Source: Caldilineales bacterium
Lineage (GTDB): Bacteria; Chloroflexota; Anaerolineae; J102
Reading direction: 5' to 3'
NCBI GenBank assembly: GCA_019695115.1
Contig: JAIBAP010000045.1
Location: 1 to 47,011 of the forward strand
Length of the DNA stretch: 47,011 nucleotides
Below the pieces are notes generated by a model. The model made no database searches and was not told where the DNA came from. It was given only the letters and a program-made list of their open reading frames with translations. Of the stretch, positions 1-38,475 are shown piece after piece; the first letter of the stretch is position 1; every line of letters begins with the position of its first letter. A program made the translations under genes and the position numbers.

Positions 1-2762
<2,762 letters not shown>

Positions 2763-17752: not shown

Positions 17753-18001
17753 ATGCAAAAGGTTCTACAACTCACCGCGGTTGTCGAGCGCGAAGGCGAT
17801 GGCTATGTCGCCACCTGCCCGGAATTGGATGTCGTTAGCCAGGGTGACACGGTCGAAAACGCGCGTCTCAATCTGCTCGAAGCGGTGGAGGGGTTCTTCG
17901 AAGCGGCTTCGCCTTTGGAGGTTCGACGCCGGACGGAATCAACTTCACAGCACGATGTCCGTTCGGGGCAGACTCTTATCTCGTGTCAAATCGAGGTCTG
18001 A
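17753..18001 (+). CDS. HicB family antitoxin-like protein, orphan
   Basis: 82 residues. The N-terminal [32 protein letters not shown] is the HicB partial RNase H-like fold ([20 protein letters not shown] and [19 protein letters not shown]). HicB normally neutralises the HicA mRNA endonuclease encoded next to it; no HicA frame exists on either side. It runs opposite to the lysine operon, and its last 57 bases overlap the end of the homoaconitase gene. It may be a relic, a stand-alone regulator, or paired with a distant HicA. Confidence 0.75.
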
Positions 18002-20008
18002 ACCAGCCAGAGGGGATGCAGCAAAGAACTCAGATAGCTTCTGTTGCACTTGCCGCGTTTTCAACATCGGAATCAGCCCCCCGGCGGCGATGATGGCGCG
18101 TAACGAGGGCGAAAGTGGCGGGAAGGGGAAGGCGCCGGCCGCACAGACCACCAGGCAGTTGTCGAGGTCGATGCCGATCTCCTCGCCGAGCTGGATGGCC
18201 GCTGCCGCCTCCGGGCAGACGACCGGCAGGATGCCGTTGTTGACGGCGTTGCGGAAATAGATGCGGGCGAAGCTGCTGGCGACGATGGCCTGCACTCCGG
18301 CCGCCTTCAAACACCCCACCGCCTGCTCCCGGCTCGACCCGCAGCCCCAATTACGCCCGCCCACGACGATGTCGCCCGGCCGGACATTGGCGGCGAAGCT
18401 CGGATCCAGGTCTTCGAGAGCGTGCTGCGCCCATTCGGCGGGCGTCTTCAGTGTGTAGGTGTACTTGCCGGGGAAGATGACATCGGTGTTGACATTGTCG
18501 CCATATTTCCAGGCCCGGCCGGAGAGGGGGAGGGTGGAGATTGGAGATTGGAGATTGGTTATTGGCTGCGTACTGCGTACTGCGTATTGCGTATCTTCAC
18601 TTGCCGCTTGCGACCTGTCATCCTTCGCTGCGCTCAGGACAGGCTCTGCTACTTGCGCCCTGCCACTTGCGACCTGCGACCTGCGACTTGCCACCTGCCA
18701 TCTGCCACCTGCCGCTCCTGCGATCCGTCCCGCCACGGCGCTGGCCGCGACGATGGCCGGGCTGGCCAGATAGACATCGCTCTCGGCGGTGCCCATGCGC
18801 CCGCGGAAATTGCGGTTGCCGGTGCTGATCGTCGCCTCGCCCGGCGCCGGGATGCCCATGTGGTTGCCCATGCACGGCCCGCAGCCGGGTGTGCCGATCA
18901 TCGCCCCGGCCTGGATAAATGTATCGATGAAACCGGCGGCCAGCGCCTGGCGATAGACCTGACTGGAGGCCGGGATCACCAGCAGCCGCGTGCCCGCCGC
19001 CACCCGTTTGATTTCGCCGCTGCCGTGACCCAGCACCCGCGCCGCCTCAGCCAGGTCCCCGATCCGGCCATTGGTGCACGTCCCCAGAAAAGCCTGCTGA
19101 ATCGGCGTCCCTGCCACCTCAGACAATGGGCGCACGTTGTCGGGGCTGTGTGGGCAGGCGACCAGTGGCTCGATGGCGCCCAGGTCGCAGGATAGGTGGC
19201 CGGCATAGCTGGCGCCGGGGTCGGGATAGAGGGCGGAGGCGCGCAGCCGGGCCAGGCAAGCGGCCAGGGGCCAGCCGGTGCGGGCGGCAAGCCGGGGCGC
19301 CAGCCAGTCGAATGTGGCCTCGTCCGGCGGGATGTAGGCGCTCTTCACCCCCGCCTCGGCCATCAGGTTCGGCAAGACCATGCGGCTTTCCACGCTCAGG
19401 CCCGTGATGCCCGGCCCGCTGAACTCGATCGATTGGTAGATGCCGCCGTCGGCGCCGATCTCCCGCAGCAGCCACAGCCCCAAATCCTTGGCCGTGACCC
19501 CGGCTGGTAGCTCGCCCACCAACTCGACCCGGATCGTCTCCGGCACGCGTAGCCACAGCTCGCCCGTGGCCCAGATCGCCGCCATCTCGCTGCGCCCCAC
19601 CCCCGCCCCAAAGGCCCCCATCCAGCCGAAATGGGTGGTGTGGCTGTCGGCGCCCAGGATGACCTGCCCCGGCCAGACGATGGCTTCCTCGCTCAGCACC
19701 TGGTGGCAGACGCCTCGGCCCGCCTCGAAGAAGTTCCGCACACCCTGCTCGGCCACGAAGCGGCGCACTTCGGCGTGATTGGCGGCGTGTTGCGTGGTGG
19801 GGGCGGGCACGGCATGGTCGAGGGTGACAGCCAGGCGGTCGGGATACTTGACCCGCTCGACGCCCAGCTCGCGGAAGATGCGGGCGATGGGGGCGGTGTT
19901 GTCGTGGCTGAGCGCCACATCGGGCCGGACATCGAGGATTTGCCCGGCGGCGGCGTGGGTTAGGTCAGCCGCGCGGGCGAGGGCTTTTTCGGCGAAGGTG
20001 GAGGGCAT
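17945..20008 (-). CDS. Homoaconitase/3-isopropylmalate dehydratase, large and small subunits fused
   Basis: 687 residues. Residues 1-~433 are the LeuC/LysT-type large subunit with the 4Fe-4S cysteines in GTCTNGR and GCGPCMGNH. Residues ~495-687 are the LeuD/LysU-type small subunit ([27 protein letters not shown]). In this cluster it should convert homocitrate to homoisocitrate. The two are normally separate chains. Here a ~61-residue linker (~434-494) joins them, and its DNA is made of three intergenic repeat families read in frame. The C-terminal ~30 residues run past the usual LeuD end. Whether it also serves leucine synthesis is open. Confidence 0.85.
18527..18715 (-). repeat. Repeat mosaic forming the LeuC-LeuD linker
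   Basis: From left to right on +: GGAGATTGGAGATTGG words (about 18534-18573), TACTGCGTACTGCGTA words (about 18577-18597), CTTGCGACCTG words with one TCCTTCG...CAGGACAGG element (18620-18645) embedded, then more CTTGCGACCTG/CTTGCCACCTG words to about 18715. All are also found between genes in this window. No stop codon interrupts the reading frame. Confidence 0.88.
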
Positions 20009-20088
20009 TGTAATTGGTTGTTGGAGATTGGAGATTGGTTATTGGAGATTGGTTATTGGAAGTCGAGCTGCGACTTGCACCTGCCACC
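20009..20088. repeat. TTGGAGATTGGTTATTGG repeats before the homoaconitase gene
   Basis: A short run of TTGGAGATTGG and TTGGTTATTGG words, ending in CGACTTGCACCTGCC words. It lies between the start of the homoaconitase gene and the 37-bp repeat block. Confidence 0.8.
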
Positions 20089-20240
20089 TGCGATCCTTCG
20101 TTTCACTCAGGACAAGCTCTGCGACTTGCGATCCTTCGTTTCACTCAGGACAAGCCTGCCACTTGCGATCCTTCGTTTCACTCAGGACAAGCCTGCCACT
20201 TGCGATCCTTCGTTTCACTCAGGACAAGCTCTGCCACTTG
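20089..20240. repeat. Four tandem 37-38-bp repeats after homocitrate synthase
   Basis: Units start with TGCGATCCTTCGTTTCACTC at 20089, 20127, 20164 and 20201, each followed by AGGACAAG and CTGCCACT or CTGCGACT. The block begins directly after the stop of homocitrate synthase and fills the junction to the homoaconitase gene. The core contains TCCTTCG...CAGGACAAG, seen once in the LeuC-LeuD linker too. Confidence 0.92.
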
Positions 20241-21383
20241 CTACTCCTGCCCGGCCCAGTGCAGAAGCAGCTCGTCGACATCGTCTAGCGAGAGGGCTTT
20301 TTCGTCGGCCAGGGTTTTGATGTGCTGGGTGAGGGTCTTGATGCGGTCGTCGCTCAGGGCCAGGCCGAGCTGGTCGGCGCGGGATTTGACGGCGTTCCAG
20401 CCGGTGAGCCGGTGGGCGATGGAAATATAGCGGCCGAGGCCGAAGTCGGCAGGGTTCAGAGCCTCGTAGGTTTCCGGCGCGTTGAGGATGGCTTTGGCGT
20501 GGATGCCGGCCTTGTGCGTGAAGGCCGAAAAGCCGGTGATGGGGTTGTTGAAGGGGATATCGACCCCCACCAGGTCGGCCAACATCAGCTCCAGGTCGCG
20601 CAGCTTTTCCAGCCGGTACTTCCGCCGAGTTTGTTCGGGGTTCCAGGTCATCATCCGGGCCACGAGCGCGCCCAGCGGCGTGATGCCGTTGCGTTCGCCG
20701 ATGCCCAGGATGGAGGTGTCGATGTGCGTGGCCCCGCCCTCCAACGCCGCAAAGGCGTTGGCCACGGCGCAGCCGGAATCGTTGTGGCCGTGGAATTCCA
20801 TGTCGGCGGTGGTCAGACGGCGCAGCGTGCTCACCAGCCGCCCCACTTGCGACGGCGTGGCAATCCCCACCGTGTCGGCGATGCCCAGGCGATTGACCAC
20901 CCCCAGCTTGTCCACGGCCAGATAGACGCGCAGCAGTTCCTTCTCCTCGCTGCGGAACGAGTCTTCGGTGCTGAAGCGCAGCTCGATGTCGGGCGCTTGC
21001 TGGCGGATCCAGACCAGCACCTCAGCGGCGAGATCGATGATCTCGTCGATGCTCTTGCCGTGGCTGAACTGCCGCAGTTGCGAGGAGGTGCCGATGACGA
21101 CATCGACGCCGTCTACGCCCGTTTCGAGGGCGATGTCGGCGTCGTGCTTGTGGCAGCGGATGTGGGTGAGGATGCGCGCCCGCAGGCCCAGCCCGGTGAT
21201 GGTGCGCAGGTCGGCCAGACTGCCGGGCGAGGCCAGCGGCGAAGTCAGTTCCAGATACTCGACGCCGAACTCATCGAGGGCGCGGGCGATGCGCACTTTG
21301 TCGTCGCTGCTGAACTGCGCCCCGATGAACTGCTCACCCTCGCGCAGGGTGGATTCGATGATGTGGTAGTTTTCCAGGGACAT
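20241..21383 (-). CDS. lysS: Homocitrate synthase
   Basis: Condenses 2-oxoglutarate with acetyl-CoA, the first step of the aminoadipate route. 380 residues from ATG 21383, with GGAG eight bases upstream. DmpG/LeuA-type TIM barrel: STLREGEQF (substrate Arg/Glu), [28 protein letters not shown] (metal His), [13 protein letters not shown] and [11 protein letters not shown]. Each is close to what I recall for Thermus homocitrate synthase rather than for 2-isopropylmalate synthase. The frame is open 26 codons further upstream, but that part is repeat-like and unconserved. Lysine feedback is known in the family. Confidence 0.9.
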
Positions 21384-21407
21384 GATTGACTCCGTAGACT
21401 GATCTAT

Positions 21408-21486
21408 CACGAATGACACGAATAGACGAATGACACGAGCAAAAAAGAAAGAATTCGTCACATTCGTCCAATTCGTGCCATTCGTG
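21408..21486. repeat. 16-bp inverted repeat between lysJ and homocitrate synthase
   Basis: CACGAATGACACGAAT (21408-21423) and ATTCGTGCCATTCGTG (21471-21486) pair with one G-T type mismatch across a 47-base loop that holds further ATTCGT/ACGAAT words. It starts right after the lysJ stop (21487-21489). No T run follows, so it is unlikely to be a simple terminator; mRNA processing or stability is possible. Confidence 0.75.
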
Positions 21487-22707
21487 TTAAAAAGCAGTAG
21501 TTGTTGCAGCGATCGCTTCGACGACGAGATCGATTTCCTCGCGCGTGATGACGAGCGGCGGCAGCAGGCGGAGGACGGTCGAGCCGGCGGGCAGGGCCAG
21601 GACGCCGCGGCCTTGCAGGGCTTGCAGCACGGGCGTGACCTTCATCTTCAGATCGACCCCGACCAGCAAGCCCAACCCGCGCACCTCGCGGATCATCGGC
21701 GAGGGAATGGCGCGCAGACGGGCCAGCAGGTAATCGCCAAGCTCCGCCGCCCGTTCCGGCAGGCGTTCGTCGCGCAGCACTTGCAGCGCGGCCAGGGCGG
21801 CGGCGCAGGCCAGTGGATTGCCGCCAAAGGTGCTGCCGTGGCTCATGCGCTCCAGCTCGCCGACGCGAGAGCCAATCAGGCAGGCGCCCATGGGCAGGCC
21901 GCCCGCCATCGACTTCGCCACGGCCAGCAGGTCGGGTTCCAGGCCGAAATGCTCGCAGGCGAAGAGCTTGCCCGTGCGCCCGAAACCTGTCTGCACCTCG
22001 TCCACGACCAGCAGCGCCCCCCGCTCGCGGCATAGCGCCCCCGCCCCGGCCAGATAGGCTGCATCCGCCGGGCGCACGCCGCCCTCGCCCTGCACGATCT
22101 CGATGATGACGGCAGCGGTGTCCGGGCCAATGGCCTGCTCTAGGGCGGCCAGGTCGTTGAACGGGACATGGCAGAAGTCGGGCAGCAGCGGCTCGAACGG
22201 CTGGCGGTATTTCGGCTCCCACGTGGCCGAGAGCGCGCCCAGCGTGCGGCCATGGAACCCGCGCATGGTGGCGATGATCTGCCGGCGTCCGGTGCCCAGG
22301 CGGGCGAACTTGATCGCCGCTTCGACGGCCTCGGCGCCGGAATTGCACAAGAACGCCCGGCTGAGTCCGTCCGGCGCGGCGGTGGTCAGAGCCGCCAGCA
22401 ACTCGGCCCGGCGGTCGTTGTAGAAGATCTCCGGGCAGGAGATGAGCCGGGCGGCTTGCTCAGAGATGGCGGCGACGATGGCCGGGTGGGCATGGCCCAG
22501 GTTGGCCGCCCCCTGCCCGCCCACACAATCGATGTACTCCCGCCCATCCGCGTCCCACAGCCGCGCCCCCTGCCCGCGCACGATGGCGAGGGGCCGTTTG
22601 GGGTAGACGCCGGAGGTGTGGAGGGATTCGAGATGGGTTATTGGGGATTGGAGATTGGTTATTGGAGATTGGTTATTGGAGATTGGAGATTGGGGATGGT
22701 CGCTCAT
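21487..22707 (-). CDS. lysJ: [LysW]-aminoadipate semialdehyde aminotransferase
   Basis: Transaminates LysW-bound aminoadipate semialdehyde with glutamate to LysW-lysine. 406 residues, class III PLP aminotransferase of the ArgD type. Motifs: [44 protein letters not shown] and the PLP lysine in [14 protein letters not shown]. The first ~27 residues after Met-Ser are encoded by the TTGGAGATTGG repeat and are unlike the family; homology starts near [11 protein letters not shown]. Its ATG overlaps the lysZ stop (ATGA), which fixes the start. Confidence 0.9.
22632..22700 (-). repeat. TTGGAGATTGG repeats inside the start of lysJ
   Basis: About 69 bases of TTGGGGATTGG, TTGGTTATTGG and TTGGAGATTGG words, read in frame as QSPI and NNQSPIT segments of LysJ. 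A further single copy (22741-22764) encodes the GTVIGDW segment at the end of lysZ. Confidence 0.88.
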
Positions 22708-23564
22708 GATGGGGTCTCCGTTTTGGCGGGGTGGGCTTCAATCTCTACTCTCCAATCTCCAATTACTGTCCCTTCGCCGTTCAAGGCGGCGCGAACGGGC
22801 TGCGGGCGGCGGGAGTCGGCCAGGATGACGGTGGGGACATGGGATGCCAGGGCTTCGCGGGCGGCCAGGATTTTCTTCTTCATGCGGCCGGCGGCCAGGT
22901 CTTCGGCCCAGTCCAGGCGGTCGGGCGAGATGTGGCGCACGAGGCTGGCTTCGTCGGGGAAGTTGGCGAGCAGGCCAGGCACGTTGCTGAGGATGACCAA
23001 CATCTCTGCCCCTAGTGCACCCGCAATCAACGCCGCTGCCCGGTCGCCGTCCACATTCAGGCGTTCGGCCTGGCGTCCCAGCGCCAGCGGCGCCACCACC
23101 GGCGTGTAGCCCGAAGCCAAAAGCAGGCGCAGCAGGTCGGCGTTGGCGCTCTCCAGCTTGCCGGTGAAGTCATCGCGCACGATGCGCTGGCGGCCATTTT
23201 CCACCGCCCGCACCGCTTCCTTGCGCTCGGCCAGCAACAGCCGCCCATCCACGCCCGAAAGCCCGACGGCATTGCAGCCCAGGCCTTGCAGGCTGGCCAC
23301 CAGGCGCTTGTTCACCTGCCCGGCGGCGGCAGCCACGTAGAGTTCCAGCGTCTCCGGGTCGGTGTAGCGGCTGACGTGGCCAGAGGGCGAGACCAGCTGG
23401 CGCACGGGCACACCGGCGCGCTCGGCCAGCGCATCTGCCGCCGCCGAGGTGCCGTGGACGAGCACGACCGGCCATCCTCCTGCCGCCAGCGCCGCACCAT
23501 CCGCACATACGGCCTGCGTATCGACTTTCGCGCCGCCGCCAACTTTGATCACGAGTGGTTTCAT
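22704..23564 (-). CDS. lysZ: [LysW]-aminoadipate kinase
   Basis: Phosphorylates the delta-carboxyl of LysW-aminoadipate. 286 residues, ArgB-type amino acid kinase. Motifs: VIKVGGGAKVD at the start for ATP, VLVHGTSAAAD, SGVDGRLLLAERKE and NVDGDRAAALIAGALGA. The last ~20 residues (VIGDWRVEIEAHPAK) come from a repeat fragment and do not belong to the kinase fold. Four-base overlap with lysJ. The ATG has no clear ribosome binding site. Confidence 0.9.
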   Translation of the reverse strand: MKPLVIKVGGGAKVDTQAVCADGAALAAGGWPVVLVHGTSAAADALAERAGVPVRQLVSPSGHVSRYTDPETLELYVAAAAGQVNKRLVASLQGLGCNAVGLSGVDGRLLLAERKEAVRAVENGRQRIVRDDFTGKLESANADLLRLLLASGYTPVVAPLALGRQAERLNVDGDRAAALIAGALGAEMLVILSNVPGLLANFPDEASLVRHISPDRLDWAEDLAAGRMKKKILAAREALASHVPTVILADSRRPQPVRAALNGEGTVIGDWRVEIEAHPAKTETPS

Positions 23565-23604
23565 GGCTTATCTGCTCGAAGGAATGAGTTCGATGGTCTT
23601 ATTG

Positions 23605-23660
23605 TTGCGTGTTGCGTGTTCCGTATCGAATGCGAGCACGCAACACGTAACACGTAACAC
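23605..23660. repeat. GTGTTGCGT inverted repeats between lysY and lysZ
   Basis: TTGCGTGTTGCGTGTTCCGT followed, after a short loop, by ACGCAACACGTAACACGTAACAC. The halves are imperfect inverted copies and could form a hairpin in the transcript just after lysY. Confidence 0.7.
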
Positions 23661-24707
23661 TCAAATCGGATGCAATCCAGTAAACGCCAATCCCGCCGTC
23701 TCCTCCCAGCCCATCATCACATTCAAGCATTGCACGGCCGTACCAGCCGCGCCTTTGCCCAGATTGTCGATAGCGGCGAGGGCGACGAAGCGGCCGCTGG
23801 CAGAGTCCACTTCCCAGCCCACATCGGCCAGATTGGTCCCGGCCAGCAGTTTCGGCTCCGGGTGGCGGTAGATGCCCGTGCGCTCGTGGACGATGCGGAC
23901 GAACGGCTCCTGCCCATAGGTTGCCCGGTACGCCCGCCAGATGTCTTTGTCGCTCAGGCCGGGCTGCACCCAGGCATGGGCTGTGGCCAGCACCCCGCGC
24001 ACCATCTCGATGCTGGTCACGGAGAGGTGGATGTCATCTCGCCCCAGCGCCTGGCTGACCTCGGCCTCGTGGCGGTGGCCGGTGGGCGCAAACGAGCGCA
24101 CGGAGCCGGCGCGTTCGGGGTGGTGCGAGGCCAGGCTGGGCGAGGCGCCGCCTTCGGACGAGCCGGCCTTGACATCGACCACGATCGGGCGGTCGGCCCG
24201 CAGCAGGCCGGCCCGGGCCAGCGGCAGCAGGGCGAGCAAAGAGGCGGTGGCGTTGCAGCCGACGCCGGAGACGTAGTGGGCGTTGCGGATGGCATCGCGA
24301 TGGATCTCGGGCAGGCCGTAAGCGAAGCGCGGCAGCCAGGCGGGGGCGGCGTGGTCTTCGCCGTAGCGCTGGCGGTAAACGGCCGGGTCAGCCAGCCGGA
24401 AATCGGCGGAGAGGTCGATGATGCGCGCGGCCAGGGCGGCGAAGCGGTCGATCTGGCGTTGGGCTTCGCCGTGGGGCAGGGCCAGGAAGAGCACGTCGCA
24501 CGGGGCCAGCTCGCTCAGGCTGGTGAAGCGCAGGGGCTGCCGCCCGGCCCACGGTCGCAAGTTGGGGTGCACGCCGTGGACATAGTTCCCGGCCTGCGAT
24601 TCGGACGTGATTTGGGCGATTTCGACCTGCGGGTGCGCCAGCAGCAATCGCAGCAGTTCGCCGCCGCCATAGCCAGAGGCGCCGATGATAGAAACGCGTG
24701 TGGTCAT
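23661..24707 (-). CDS. lysY: [LysW]-aminoadipyl phosphate reductase
   Basis: Reduces LysW-aminoadipyl phosphate to the semialdehyde with NADPH. 348 residues, ArgC type. GASGYGGGELLRLLLAHP binds NADPH; YVSGVGCNATASLLAL carries the catalytic cysteine; the catalytic His is likely in SFAPTGHRHEAEV. The wider neighbourhood (LysW, LysX, LysZ) assigns it to lysine rather than arginine, though dual use is known for such proteins in some archaea. The 81-base spacer to lysX is TTGGAGATTGG repeat. Confidence 0.9.
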   Translation of the reverse strand: MTTRVSIIGASGYGGGELLRLLLAHPQVEIAQITSESQAGNYVHGVHPNLRPWAGRQPLRFTSLSELAPCDVLFLALPHGEAQRQIDRFAALAARIIDLSADFRLADPAVYRQRYGEDHAAPAWLPRFAYGLPEIHRDAIRNAHYVSGVGCNATASLLALLPLARAGLLRADRPIVVDVKAGSSEGGASPSLASHHPERAGSVRSFAPTGHRHEAEVSQALGRDDIHLSVTSIEMVRGVLATAHAWVQPGLSDKDIWRAYRATYGQEPFVRIVHERTGIYRHPEPKLLAGTNLADVGWEVDSASGRFVALAAIDNLGKGAAGTAVQCLNVMMGWEETAGLAFTGLHPI

Positions 24708-24709
24708 AG

Positions 24710-24788
24710 GTGGGGATTGGGGATTGGAGATTGGTTATTGGTTATTAGTTATTGTGGCGCTTTACCGCAAATAACCAATAACCAATAA
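24710..24788. repeat. TTGGAGATTGG repeats between lysX and lysY
   Basis: GGGGATTGGAGATTGGTTATTGG on the left and its inverted form AATAACCAATAACCAATAAC on the right, separated by a short core. Fills the junction completely. Confidence 0.8.
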
Positions 24789-25652
24789 CTACCTACTTCT
24801 AGCCTGTTTTAGTACATAGTCCACCACCCGCGCCGGGATGTCCACGCCGGTGGTGGCGATGCTGTTGCGGAATTCCATGGTGTGGTTGACTTCGTTGACC
24901 AGCAAGCCGCGGTCGGGGTCTTCCAGCAGGTCGATGGCGACCACACCGCCGCCCACCGCCCGCGCCGCCGCCTGGCACAGCCGGTTGATTTCGGGCGTGA
25001 CCGGGCAGTTGCTGGCCTGACCGCCGCGGGCCGTGTTAGTGATCCAGTGCGGCGACTGGCGATAGATGGCGCAGATGGTCTCATCGCCGACGACGAAGGC
25101 GCGGATGTCGCGCCCCGGCTTGGCGATGAACTCCTGGATGTAGAAGATGCTGTGCTGGTACGATCCGAGCGTCTCTTTGTGTTCGAGCACGGCTTCGGCG
25201 GCGTCGCGGTCGTTGATGCGCGCCAACAGCCTGCCCCACGACCCCACCACCGGCTTGAGCACGACCGGATAGCCCAACGCCTCGATGGCTGTCAGCGCCG
25301 ATTCGGGCGTGAAAGCGATACGAGCGCGCGGCTGCGGGATGTTGGCTTCAGCCAGAGCTGCGGTGGTCAGGAGCTTATCGGCGCAGGTCGAGGCGGTGGC
25401 GTAGCGGTTGACGGCCGGGACGCCCGCCATCTCGGCCAGGCGCAGGGCGTACAACCCGCGGGCGGTGCTGACCGACCGCTCCAGCACCACGTCGGCCGTG
25501 AACGGGCTGGTGGGTGGGTGCGCATTGCCGATGGGGAAGACAAGGGCGTCGTCGTTCACGAGATGCACCTCGGCTCCGGCAGCTTCGAGCGCGGCCAGCA
25601 GCAGTTTTTCTTCGACGCGGATGCGGGAAACGACGAGAGCGATGGATGTCAT
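24789..25652 (-). CDS. lysX: LysW-aminoadipate ligase
   Basis: Joins the amino group of alpha-aminoadipate to the C-terminal Glu of LysW using ATP. 287 residues from ATG 25652, ATP-grasp (RimK-like) fold. Motifs: [34 protein letters not shown], and the metal site [15 protein letters not shown]-like [12 protein letters not shown] with IATTGVDIP after it. AAGGA lies seven bases before the ATG. A start at 25748 would only add repeat-encoded residues. Confidence 0.92.
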
Positions 25653-25766: not shown

Positions 25767-25937
25767 TTACTCCCCCCAATCCTCCTCCACTTCGGGCGCC
25801 AGTTCGAGCTGGGGCGGATCGAGGGAGACGACTTCGAGTTCAGCGCCGCATTCGCTACACGGCACGATTTCGCCAACGATAGGATTATTCAGGGTGAGGT
25901 CAGCTTCGCATTCGGGGCAGGTGGTTTGGAGGGTCAT
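25767..25937 (-). CDS. lysW: Amino-group carrier protein LysW
   Basis: 56 residues. Small acidic carrier to which aminoadipate is attached and on which LysZ, LysY and LysJ act. It has two CxxC pairs (CPEC at 7-10, CSEC at 27-30) for one zinc ion, and ends in EVEEDWGE, the signature EDWGE tail whose last Glu takes up the substrate. It leads the operon, just after the attenuator region. The coding direction and the C-terminus leave no real doubt. No strong ribosome binding site is seen; the bases before the ATG are repeat DNA and a short C run. Confidence 0.96.
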
Positions 25938-25954: not shown

Positions 25955-26158
25955 GAGATTGGAGATTGGTTATTGGGGATTGGTTATTGGGGATTGGTTA
26001 TTGGGGATTGGTTATTGGGGATTGGTTATTGGAGATTGGTTATTGGGGATTGGTTATTGGGGATTGGTTATTGGAGATTGGTTACTGGGGATTGGTTATT
26101 GGGGATTGGTTATTGGAGATTGGCCGCAATTACCAATAACTAATAACCAATAACCAAC
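25955..26158. repeat. TTGGAGATTGGTTATTGG array before lysW
   Basis: About 200 bases built of TTGGTTATTGGGGATTGG and TTGGTTATTGGAGATTGG units, roughly 10-11 times, ended by an inverted stretch (TACCAATAACTAATAACC). It lies between terminator B and lysW, so it becomes the untranslated leader of lysW. No coding. Confidence 0.92.
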
Positions 26159-26162
26159 AAAA

Positions 26163-26193
26163 AGCCCCTCTCGCCGGACGGGGCGGAGGGGCT
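26163..26193 (-). terminator. Intrinsic terminator B (3:4 hairpin)
   Basis: In the transcript: AGCCCCTC pairs with GAGGGGCT (8 bp, 26193-26186 with 26170-26163), extended inward by CGCC/GGCG with one bulged A, then TTTTTG. It lies 29 bases after the stop of leader peptide B and about 225 bases before lysW. Confidence 0.88.
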
Positions 26194-26269
26194 GTGGCGA
26201 CTTCATCGTGCGCCGAAGCAGCCTACGCGGACCGCCGGTCCGGTGGGGAATGGAACTGCTTCTTGGCGC
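26190..26269 (-). promoter_or_regulatory. Attenuator B: alternative 1:2 and 2:3 pairings
   Basis: Region 1 GCGCCAAGAAGCAG (26269-26256), which contains two adjacent Lys codons, pairs with region 2 CTGCTTCGGCGC (26221-26210): 12 bp with a two-base AA bulge. Region 2 can instead pair with region 3: GGCTG (26223-26219) with CAGCC (26194-26190) and GGCG (26214-26211) with CGCC (26199-26196). The 2:3 stem takes four bases of the terminator's 5' arm, so the two exclude each other. A ribosome stalled at the Lys codons would favour 2:3 (read-through); one at the stop codon, which abuts region 2, would favour termination. Confidence 0.75.
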
Positions 26270-26288
26270 GCTTGGTGAGGGTAGACAT
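26223..26288 (-). CDS. Leader peptide B, lysine-codon rich
   Basis: 21 residues: MSTLTKRAKKQFHS then PPDRRSA and TAG. Three Lys (all AAG) lie at positions 6, 9 and 10, with Arg at 7. Lys 9-10 fall within the 1:2 stem of the attenuator, and the stop codon is directly before region 2. There is no visible Shine-Dalgarno; the bases before the ATG are repeat DNA, so translation efficiency is uncertain. The position between promoter and lysW and the matched RNA pairings are the reasons for calling it. Confidence 0.65.
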   Translation of the reverse strand: MSTLTKRAKKQFHSPPDRRSA

Positions 26289-26443
26289 GAGATTGGTTAT
26301 TAGAGATTGGTTATTGGAGATTGGTTATTGGAGATTGGTTATTGGAGATTGGTTATTGGTTATTGGTAATTGGTAACTAATAACTAGTAACTAGTAACTG
26401 ATAATTGGGCGCAATCTCCAATCTCCAATAACCAATAACCAAC
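26289..26443. repeat. TTGGAGATTGG array between the two attenuators
   Basis: About 150 bases: TTGGTTATTGGAGATTGG words on the left, then TAACTAATAACTAGTAACTAG words, then CAATCTCCAATAACC inverted words up to terminator A. The same junction, TTTTTG then TTGGTTATTGG, follows both terminators in the transcript. Confidence 0.88.
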
Positions 26444-26447
26444 AAAA

Positions 26448-26479
26448 AGCCCCGCCTGGCTGTGCTGCCTGGCAGGGCT
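26448..26479 (-). terminator. Intrinsic terminator A (3:4 hairpin)
   Basis: In the transcript AGCCCTGCC (26479-26471) pairs with GGCGGGGCT (26456-26448): 9 bp including one G-T pair, extended inward by a GGC/GCC pairing, then TTTTTG. It lies 23 bases after the stop of leader peptide A. Confidence 0.88.
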
Positions 26480-26548
26480 TGTGCGGCGGTAGGGTTCGAC
26501 CATCATCCCAAGCGCAAAAGGCCATCCCAGGCGCGGGAGGGCTTCTTG
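26475..26548 (-). promoter_or_regulatory. Attenuator A: alternative 1:2 and 2:3 pairings
   Basis: Region 1 CAAGAAGCC (26548-26540), with two adjacent Lys codons, can pair with region 2 GGCCTTTTG (26523-26515), 8 of 9 positions with one G-T. Region 2 extended to GGCCTTTTGCG (26523-26513) can instead pair with region 3 CGCACAAGCCC (26485-26475), 9 of 11 positions. Region 3 covers five bases of the terminator's 5' arm. The pairing is less perfect than in attenuator B. Confidence 0.6.
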
Positions 26549-26586
26549 GACTTGGAGCACTTGACGAGGGTCGGCAGGGAATTCAT
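26503..26586 (-). CDS. Leader peptide A, lysine-codon rich
   Basis: 27 residues: MNSLPTLVKCSKSKKPSRAW then DGLLRLG and TGA. Four Lys codons, all AAG, at positions 9, 12, 14 and 15. Lys 14-15 lie in region 1 of attenuator A. Its ATG is about 30 bases after the predicted transcription start. No Shine-Dalgarno is visible. The lysine content is far above chance for a 27-residue frame, and the following terminator and lysine operon explain it. Confidence 0.65.
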   Translation of the reverse strand: MNSLPTLVKCSKSKKPSRAWDGLLRLG

Positions 26587-26622
26587 GGCGGCGGGATGAT
26601 GGCGACAAACAAGGTTGGCGGG

Positions 26623-26651
26623 AGTATACGCAGGTGGGGTCGCGCTGTCAA
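26623..26651 (-). promoter_or_regulatory. Promoter of the lysine operon
   Basis: On the minus strand: TTGACA (26651-26646), 17-base spacer, TATACT (26628-26623). The -35 is perfect and the -10 differs from consensus at one position. Transcription would start near 26616. The gene for the MOSC protein is divergent on the other side. Confidence 0.88.
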
Positions 26652-38317: not shown

Positions 38318-38475
38318 GTTATTGGTAATTAGTAATTGGTTATTGGAGATTGGTTATTGGAGATTGGTTATTGGAGATTGGTTATTGGAGATTGGTTATT
38401 GGAGATTGGTTATTGGAGATTGGTTATTCACGCTAATTACCAATAACCAATAACCAATAACCAATAACCATTTCC
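38318..38475. repeat. TTGGAGATTGG array between dprA and topA
   Basis: TTATTGGAGATTGG repeated about seven times at 38338-38428, then inverted copies (CCAATAACCAATAACCAATAACC) to 38470. Inverted halves could fold into a long hairpin in the topA leader. Confidence 0.92.

Follow-up and report, generated by a model that had tools for sequence, protein, structure and literature searches.

The lysine operon in the window (the whole stretch of 47,011 nucleotides analysed) is very probably preceded by two ribosome-mediated lysine attenuators in series, lying on one transcript that continues into the operon. The downstream element, A2 (26288-26159), is the attenuator of the original prediction. Its reading as a lysine attenuator was supported, with the correction that A2 is the second of two; the upstream attenuator, A1 (26586-26444), lies directly upstream of A2 and had been overlooked. 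The basis of this reading consists of anatomy, conservation, helix-level co-variation and a modelled folding switch.

Anatomy of the leader region

The features of the two elements and of the genes behind them are listed in Table 1. A TTGACA box and a TATAAT-like box with a spacer of 16 were found at the same place upstream of A1 in 17 relatives, mostly with a 12/12 match to the consensus. Between A1 and A2 there was no good promoter, the best site matching the consensus at 8 of 12 positions at most. Because the sole good promoter lies upstream of A1 and none lies between the elements, A1 and A2 should share one transcript. The leaders carry clustered codons for the end product of the pathway, four for Lys in A1 and three in A2, and the gene set downstream, in which lysZ encodes [LysW]-aminoadipate kinase, is that of a lysine operon. 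A1 and A2 were the only units in the 47-kb window in which a terminator follows a small Lys-rich ORF; when the window was Markov-shuffled 12 times, a single unit of this kind turned up overall.

Table 1. Positions of the leader elements, the lysine genes and the ilvB leader (window coordinates, except for ilvB).
Feature	Position	Strand	Basis or remark
Promoter TTGACA-17-TATACT, upstream of A1	26623..26651	-	11/12 consensus match
A1 leader ORF, 27 codons, MNSLPTLVKCSKSKKPSRAWDGLLRLG, Lys codons 9, 12, 14, 15	26503..26586	-	
A1 region 2, GCGCCTGGGATGGC, antiterminator partner of region 3	26521..26534	-	Helix swap
A1 region 3, GCCCTGCCAGGC, 5' arm of A1 terminator	26467..26478	-	
A1 intrinsic terminator, hairpin -25.2 kcal/mol, then TTTTT	26444..26480	-	
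A2 leader ORF, 21 codons, ATG...TAG, MSTLTKRAKKQFHSPPDRRSA, Lys codons 6, 9, 10	26223..26288	-	
A2 region 1 (Lys-Lys-Gln codons) of 12-bp 1:2 stem	26256..26269	-	MFE fold, helix swap
A2 region 2, CACCGGACCGGCGG, within ORF, partner of region 3	26232..26245	-	
A2 post-stop segment, CTGCTTCGGCGC, partner of Lys codons	26210..26221	-	MFE fold
A2 region 3, CGCCCCGTCCGGCG, upper half of terminator	26172..26185	-	
A2 intrinsic terminator, hairpin -24.3 kcal/mol, then TTTTT	26159..26193	-	
lysW, first structural gene	25770..25937	-	TIGR01206, 85 bits
lysX, lysY (argC-like), lysZ, lysJ, homocitrate synthase, fused homoaconitase large and small subunits	17945..25649	-	
ilvB leader attenuator (acetolactate synthase)	G000:C18:26844-26973; locus L179, about 507-680		Sequence

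Most of the anatomy first described for A2 was confirmed. The 21-codon frame with three AAG codons (codons 6, 9 and 10) is present at 26288-26223 of the minus strand, the 12-bp stem (GCGCC..GAAGCAG with CTGCTTCGGCGC) appears in the minimum-energy fold, and the intrinsic terminator occupies 26193-26159 of the same strand. The A2 RNA (141 nt) folded at -57.2 kcal/mol, compared with -42.5 ± 3.7 in shuffles (z = -4.0). Two details had to be revised. The competing 2:3 stem exists (-19.5 kcal/mol) but does not simply share the 5' arm of the terminator, as had been proposed; region 3 of A2 runs from the inner part of the 5' arm across the loop into the inner part of the 3' arm. The stop codon, described as abutting region 2, is adjacent to the pairing partner of the Lys codons, whereas the pairing partner of region 3 is located within the ORF, 5' of the stop. 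No Shine-Dalgarno sequence precedes the A2 ATG, as was already pointed out, and none precedes the A1 leader or lysW in the source genome either; in several relatives the leaders are preceded by AGGAG, GAGG or GGAG.

Lysine control is usually attributed to L-box riboswitches and T-boxes, and a structured leader with a terminator ahead of a lysine operon is also what a metabolite riboswitch or T-box, acting in place of ribosome-mediated control, would present. At these leaders, in the window and in 20 further loci, no Rfam family, including the lysine riboswitch and the T-box, was found at the gathering score, and the only two Rfam matches there were to an FMN switch, which is unrelated, and to a tRNA on the opposite strand. 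Such a device would, moreover, leave the runs of Lys codons unexplained, and we regard its probability as negligible.

Heptad repeats of the ATTGGTT/ATTGGAG type were observed on the flanks of both attenuators, and repeats were located at 25958-26123, 26289-26408, 22625-22697, 20013-20060 and 38348-38423. The 20-mer GATTGGTTATTGGAGATTGG occurs in 111 copies in the genome, against 0 for a reversed control, and some of the copies lie in predicted coding sequence (the start of lysJ). The large and small subunits of homoaconitase form a single ORF of 687 residues (17945-20008, minus strand), and the linker that joins them is repeat-derived sequence.

Helix pairing and co-variation

RNAalifold, applied to 17 A2 sequences, picked the 2:3 antiterminator unprompted; four of the sequences carried double changes from GC to AU. 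A pair count of this helix showed that 90.2% of cells were paired, with a co-variation score of 0.185 compared with 0.125 ± 0.018. With 18 A1 sequences the program picked the terminator, three pairs of which showed double changes; the stem displayed compensatory UA/GC and GC/AU changes. The intrinsic terminator between the leader ORF and the first gene is conserved, with compensatory changes.

In a helix-swap test, own-species segments were compared with between-species swaps, and the permutations that reached the own-species mean energy were counted. These permutations ignore phylogeny, so that significance is overstated; read in that light, the counts out of 20000 were 9 (1:2), 23 (2:3) and 0 (3:4) for A2, and 94, 0 and 0, respectively, for A1. 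The A1 2:3 helix had an energy of -18.4 kcal/mol with own-species segments and -15.2 kcal/mol with those of other species. In an additional set of 36 leaders drawn from other families and phyla, the 2:3 swap gave 0/20000, and the 1:2 swap, made with crude segment limits, was not significant. A column-wise test found no co-variation in the 1:2 stem of A2 because the register of pairing is not the same from species to species, and the helix swap was used for this stem instead. Relatives with the terminator but without the Lys codons or the pairings, which the original prediction had named as evidence against itself, were not seen: the Lys codons, the terminator and both alternative stems are all retained, with compensatory changes.

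The peptides themselves end in conserved sequences (AWDGRLRLG and LPDxxSG), which is compatible with functional small peptides or arrest peptides, the terminators then being ordinary ends of small transcripts. The conserved C-terminal codons, however, are the two regions 2, which change together with region 3, and the N-terminal parts differ in length and sequence. This explanation appears very improbable, and we take the conserved codons to be pairing segments of attenuators.

Modelled effect of ribosome position on folding

Folding was modelled with an imposed ribosome footprint for 17 A2 and 18 A1 elements, each transcript ending directly ahead of the 3' arm of the terminator. With the ribosome on the last Lys codon, the 2:3 stem formed in 35/35 elements, with a mean of 10.5 pairs in A2 and 8.5 in A1; with the ribosome on the stop codon, the means were 2.7 and 2.8, respectively. 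In a minority of relatives the 2:3 stem persisted with the ribosome on the stop codon; these were A2 of L008 and L011-L013 and A1 of L002, L006, L015 and L016.

In the A2 element of the window, 10.3 pairs of the 2:3 stem formed when the A site was at codons 6-11, a range that includes all three Lys codons, and 0 pairs formed from codon 15 to the stop. In the A1 element, with the RNA behind the ribosome held open, 9.2-9.4 pairs formed with the ribosome at codons 10-14, and none from codon 19 onwards; the stall positions that gave the full 2:3 stem ran from codon 8 to 15, with all four Lys codons inside. When a 5'-UTR segment was allowed to pair behind the ribosome, A1 of the window gave zero 2:3 pairs at every position, because this segment pairs with the end of the leader. 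The complementarity involves CGCCATCATCCC (26593-26604, minus strand) in the 5' UTR and GGGATGATGG (26500-26512, minus strand) at the leader end, and it was not observed in the relatives inspected.

When no ribosome was present, the 2:3 stem still formed in many A2 relatives (mean of 8.0 pairs), and not in the window. Full-length thermodynamics nearly always favoured the terminator over the antiterminator; antitermination must therefore be kinetic. As computed, stalling at the cognate codons leads to an antiterminator that excludes the terminator.

Codon specificity

ORF and terminator units with at least 4 Lys per 9 residues were found before lysW at 36/89 loci. The next residues at the same threshold were Arg with 14 and Ser with 10, and Lys on the antisense strand gave 0. 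In a second, named set, which partly overlaps the first 89-locus set, Lys reached 21/80 and Ser came next with 7. As a pathway-matched control, a leader for branched-chain amino acids (MPSATASTLILVSVKLLVLISGQEPSPVGRQAPGN) followed by a terminator was found before ilvB in the same genome. This leader bears Ile, Leu and Val codons, indicating that leader codons match the pathway.

The rank of Arg, the second most frequent residue in the leader count, bears on whether the signal could be arginine, or basic amino acids as a class. LysW pathways can make ornithine too, and A2 has a conserved Arg codon (KRxKK), KR being present in most relatives. This codon, CGC, lies within the 1:2 stem, which can explain its retention, and in A1 the stall site lacks a conserved Arg. 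The operon, moreover, contains homocitrate synthase, homoaconitase and [LysW]-aminoadipate kinase, and at the stricter threshold Lys exceeded Arg by 36 to 14. We consider arginine or general basic sensing improbable; lysine is the signal to which A1 and A2 would respond.

Conservation across relatives

We searched for lysW in 298 genomes of the class and obtained a match in 227; regions upstream of lysW were scanned at 89 loci from 29 sampled families. At a looser threshold, a Lys-rich leader with a terminator was located upstream of lysW at 47/89 loci and in 12/29 sampled families, counts that may include a few single calls due to chance, for instance one in f45. Leaders were present in all sampled members of f1 (10/10), f31 (8/8), f36 (11/11) and f15 (4/4), and likewise of f33, f19, f32 and f35; no Lys-rich leader was found before lysW in f39 (0/9) and f43 (0/5), among others. 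Tandem pairs occurred in at least five families. The A1 and A2 tandem is the rule in f1 and f31, and differently shaped pairs were seen in f15, f19, f33 and named Anaerolineae records. Named relatives include Caldilineae and Anaerolineae bacteria of Chloroflexota.

Covariance models of A1 and A2 were run on 20 genomes of the window's order, all from its family. Both elements were detected in 10/10 genomes that bear lysW, and the 10 genomes without lysW had neither, except for one marginal A1 match (E = 0.009). In one genome of the order, A1 and lysW are on separate contigs. The A1 leader of relatives has the conserved sequence xKxSKSKKPSLAWDGRLRLG. A2-like leaders, which end in KK..PDxxSG and a stop, are the commoner type in the class and often occur without A1.

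The frequency of single A2-like leaders would suit a scheme in which A2 alone regulates and A1 is a constitutive terminator or a relic. However, A1 is kept together with A2 in every lysW-bearing genome of the order and in f31, its terminator and antiterminator have undergone compensatory changes, and a constitutive terminator beside the promoter would silence the operon. The chance that A2 acts alone is therefore slim, and two working attenuators in series is the reading we retain.

Model R2 matched A2 (E = 2.4e-4), and R1 matched A1 in four relatives (E = 1.5e-4 to 5.5e-4). An origin of A1 and A2 by duplication is only hinted at by these values, and the common Lys codons and terminator shape could account for the cross-matches. 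At L180 (genome G277), a gene for a LysE/RhtB-family exporter sits between A1 and A2, so that A1 may control the exporter there. Lys-rich leaders with terminators were also observed before lysW in Phycisphaerales and other Planctomycetota and in records labelled Gemmatimonadetes and Acidobacteria (L115, L119, L120, L122, L152, L163 and L166); these leaders had no obvious sequence similarity to those of Chloroflexota.

Proposed mechanism

In the mechanism that we propose, transcription would start at the 26651 promoter and run through A1 and A2 into lysW-X-Y-Z-J and the genes for homocitrate synthase and homoaconitase, and both leaders would be translated. When Lys-tRNA is short, a ribosome would stall on the Lys codons and occupy region 1, region 2 would pair with region 3, which is the upper or 5' portion of the terminator hairpin, and the polymerase would continue transcribing. 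When Lys-tRNA is plentiful, the ribosome would reach the stop codon and cover region 2, allowing the terminator to form. The terminator would form too if the leader were not translated, region 2 then being sequestered by region 1 or by local hairpins. Since the polymerase would have to clear both gates, the leak should multiply and so reduce the basal level of expression, and a steeper response is expected than a single gate would give.

On balance, we think it fairly likely that this same-signal cascade acts as a lysine gate in two stages, with multiplied repression and a sharper response, an architecture undescribed before, common in lysine operons of Chloroflexota and possibly of more than one origin. 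A large, mostly uncultured group very probably controls lysine by leader-peptide attenuation, with two attenuators in series that would read one amino acid, lysine. The arrangement offers a natural test case for what a doubled attenuator brings, be it lower leak, a steeper response or different set points; a difference in set point may lie in the four Lys codons of A1 versus three in A2.

Comparison with known systems

The trp, his, leu, thr and ilv attenuators of enterobacteria share with A1 and A2 the cognate codons, the mutually exclusive 2:3 and 3:4 stems and the intrinsic terminator. The present elements differ from them in having lysine as the putative signal and in standing two in series. 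A2 differs further in that its region 3 forms the upper half of the terminator and that separate segments pair with region 1 and with region 3. The L box riboswitch likewise places lysine genes under the control of a leader RNA, but it binds lysine directly and has no leader ORF, and no match to its Rfam model was found at these leaders.

Leader-peptide attenuation by lysine was reportedly described for the lysine cluster of Thermus thermophilus, in J Biol Chem in 2005. The original prediction mentioned leader-peptide control in the Thermus lysine cluster, and this is consistent with the sequence of four Thermus genomes, in which the leader MLALEKKLGRRGVG or MLAR(A/G)KKLGRRGVG, a hairpin and a T-run precede homocitrate synthase. 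As in A1 and A2, Lys codons, a hairpin and a T-run stand before a lysine cluster of the LysW/alpha-aminoadipate type. Thermus has one leader of 14 residues with a KK pair, directly before homocitrate synthase, whereas here two leaders in tandem lie before lysW, one of 27 residues with 4 Lys codons and one of 21 residues with 3. No sequence similarity was visible between A1 or A2 and the Thermus leaders. The two systems probably share a way of working, and not necessarily an origin.

Tandem attenuators with two leader ORFs in one leader RNA are known from mgtCBR of Salmonella, and the authors call their tandem a singular example (PMC3641672). There, mgtM and mgtP sense ATP and proline, the effects are additive, and intrinsic terminators are absent (PMC3641672). 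A1 and A2 resemble mgtCBR in having two leader ORFs in series on one leader RNA and differ from it in that both carry Lys codons and both have terminators. By modelling, single attenuators can already be hyper-sensitive (PMC1183508). No precedent for attenuators in series for the same amino acid was found in the literature searched, which, the search being limited, is weak evidence. A single lysine leader being already known, the comparison suggests that what is new here is the same-signal tandem, together with its conservation and its distribution across Chloroflexota.
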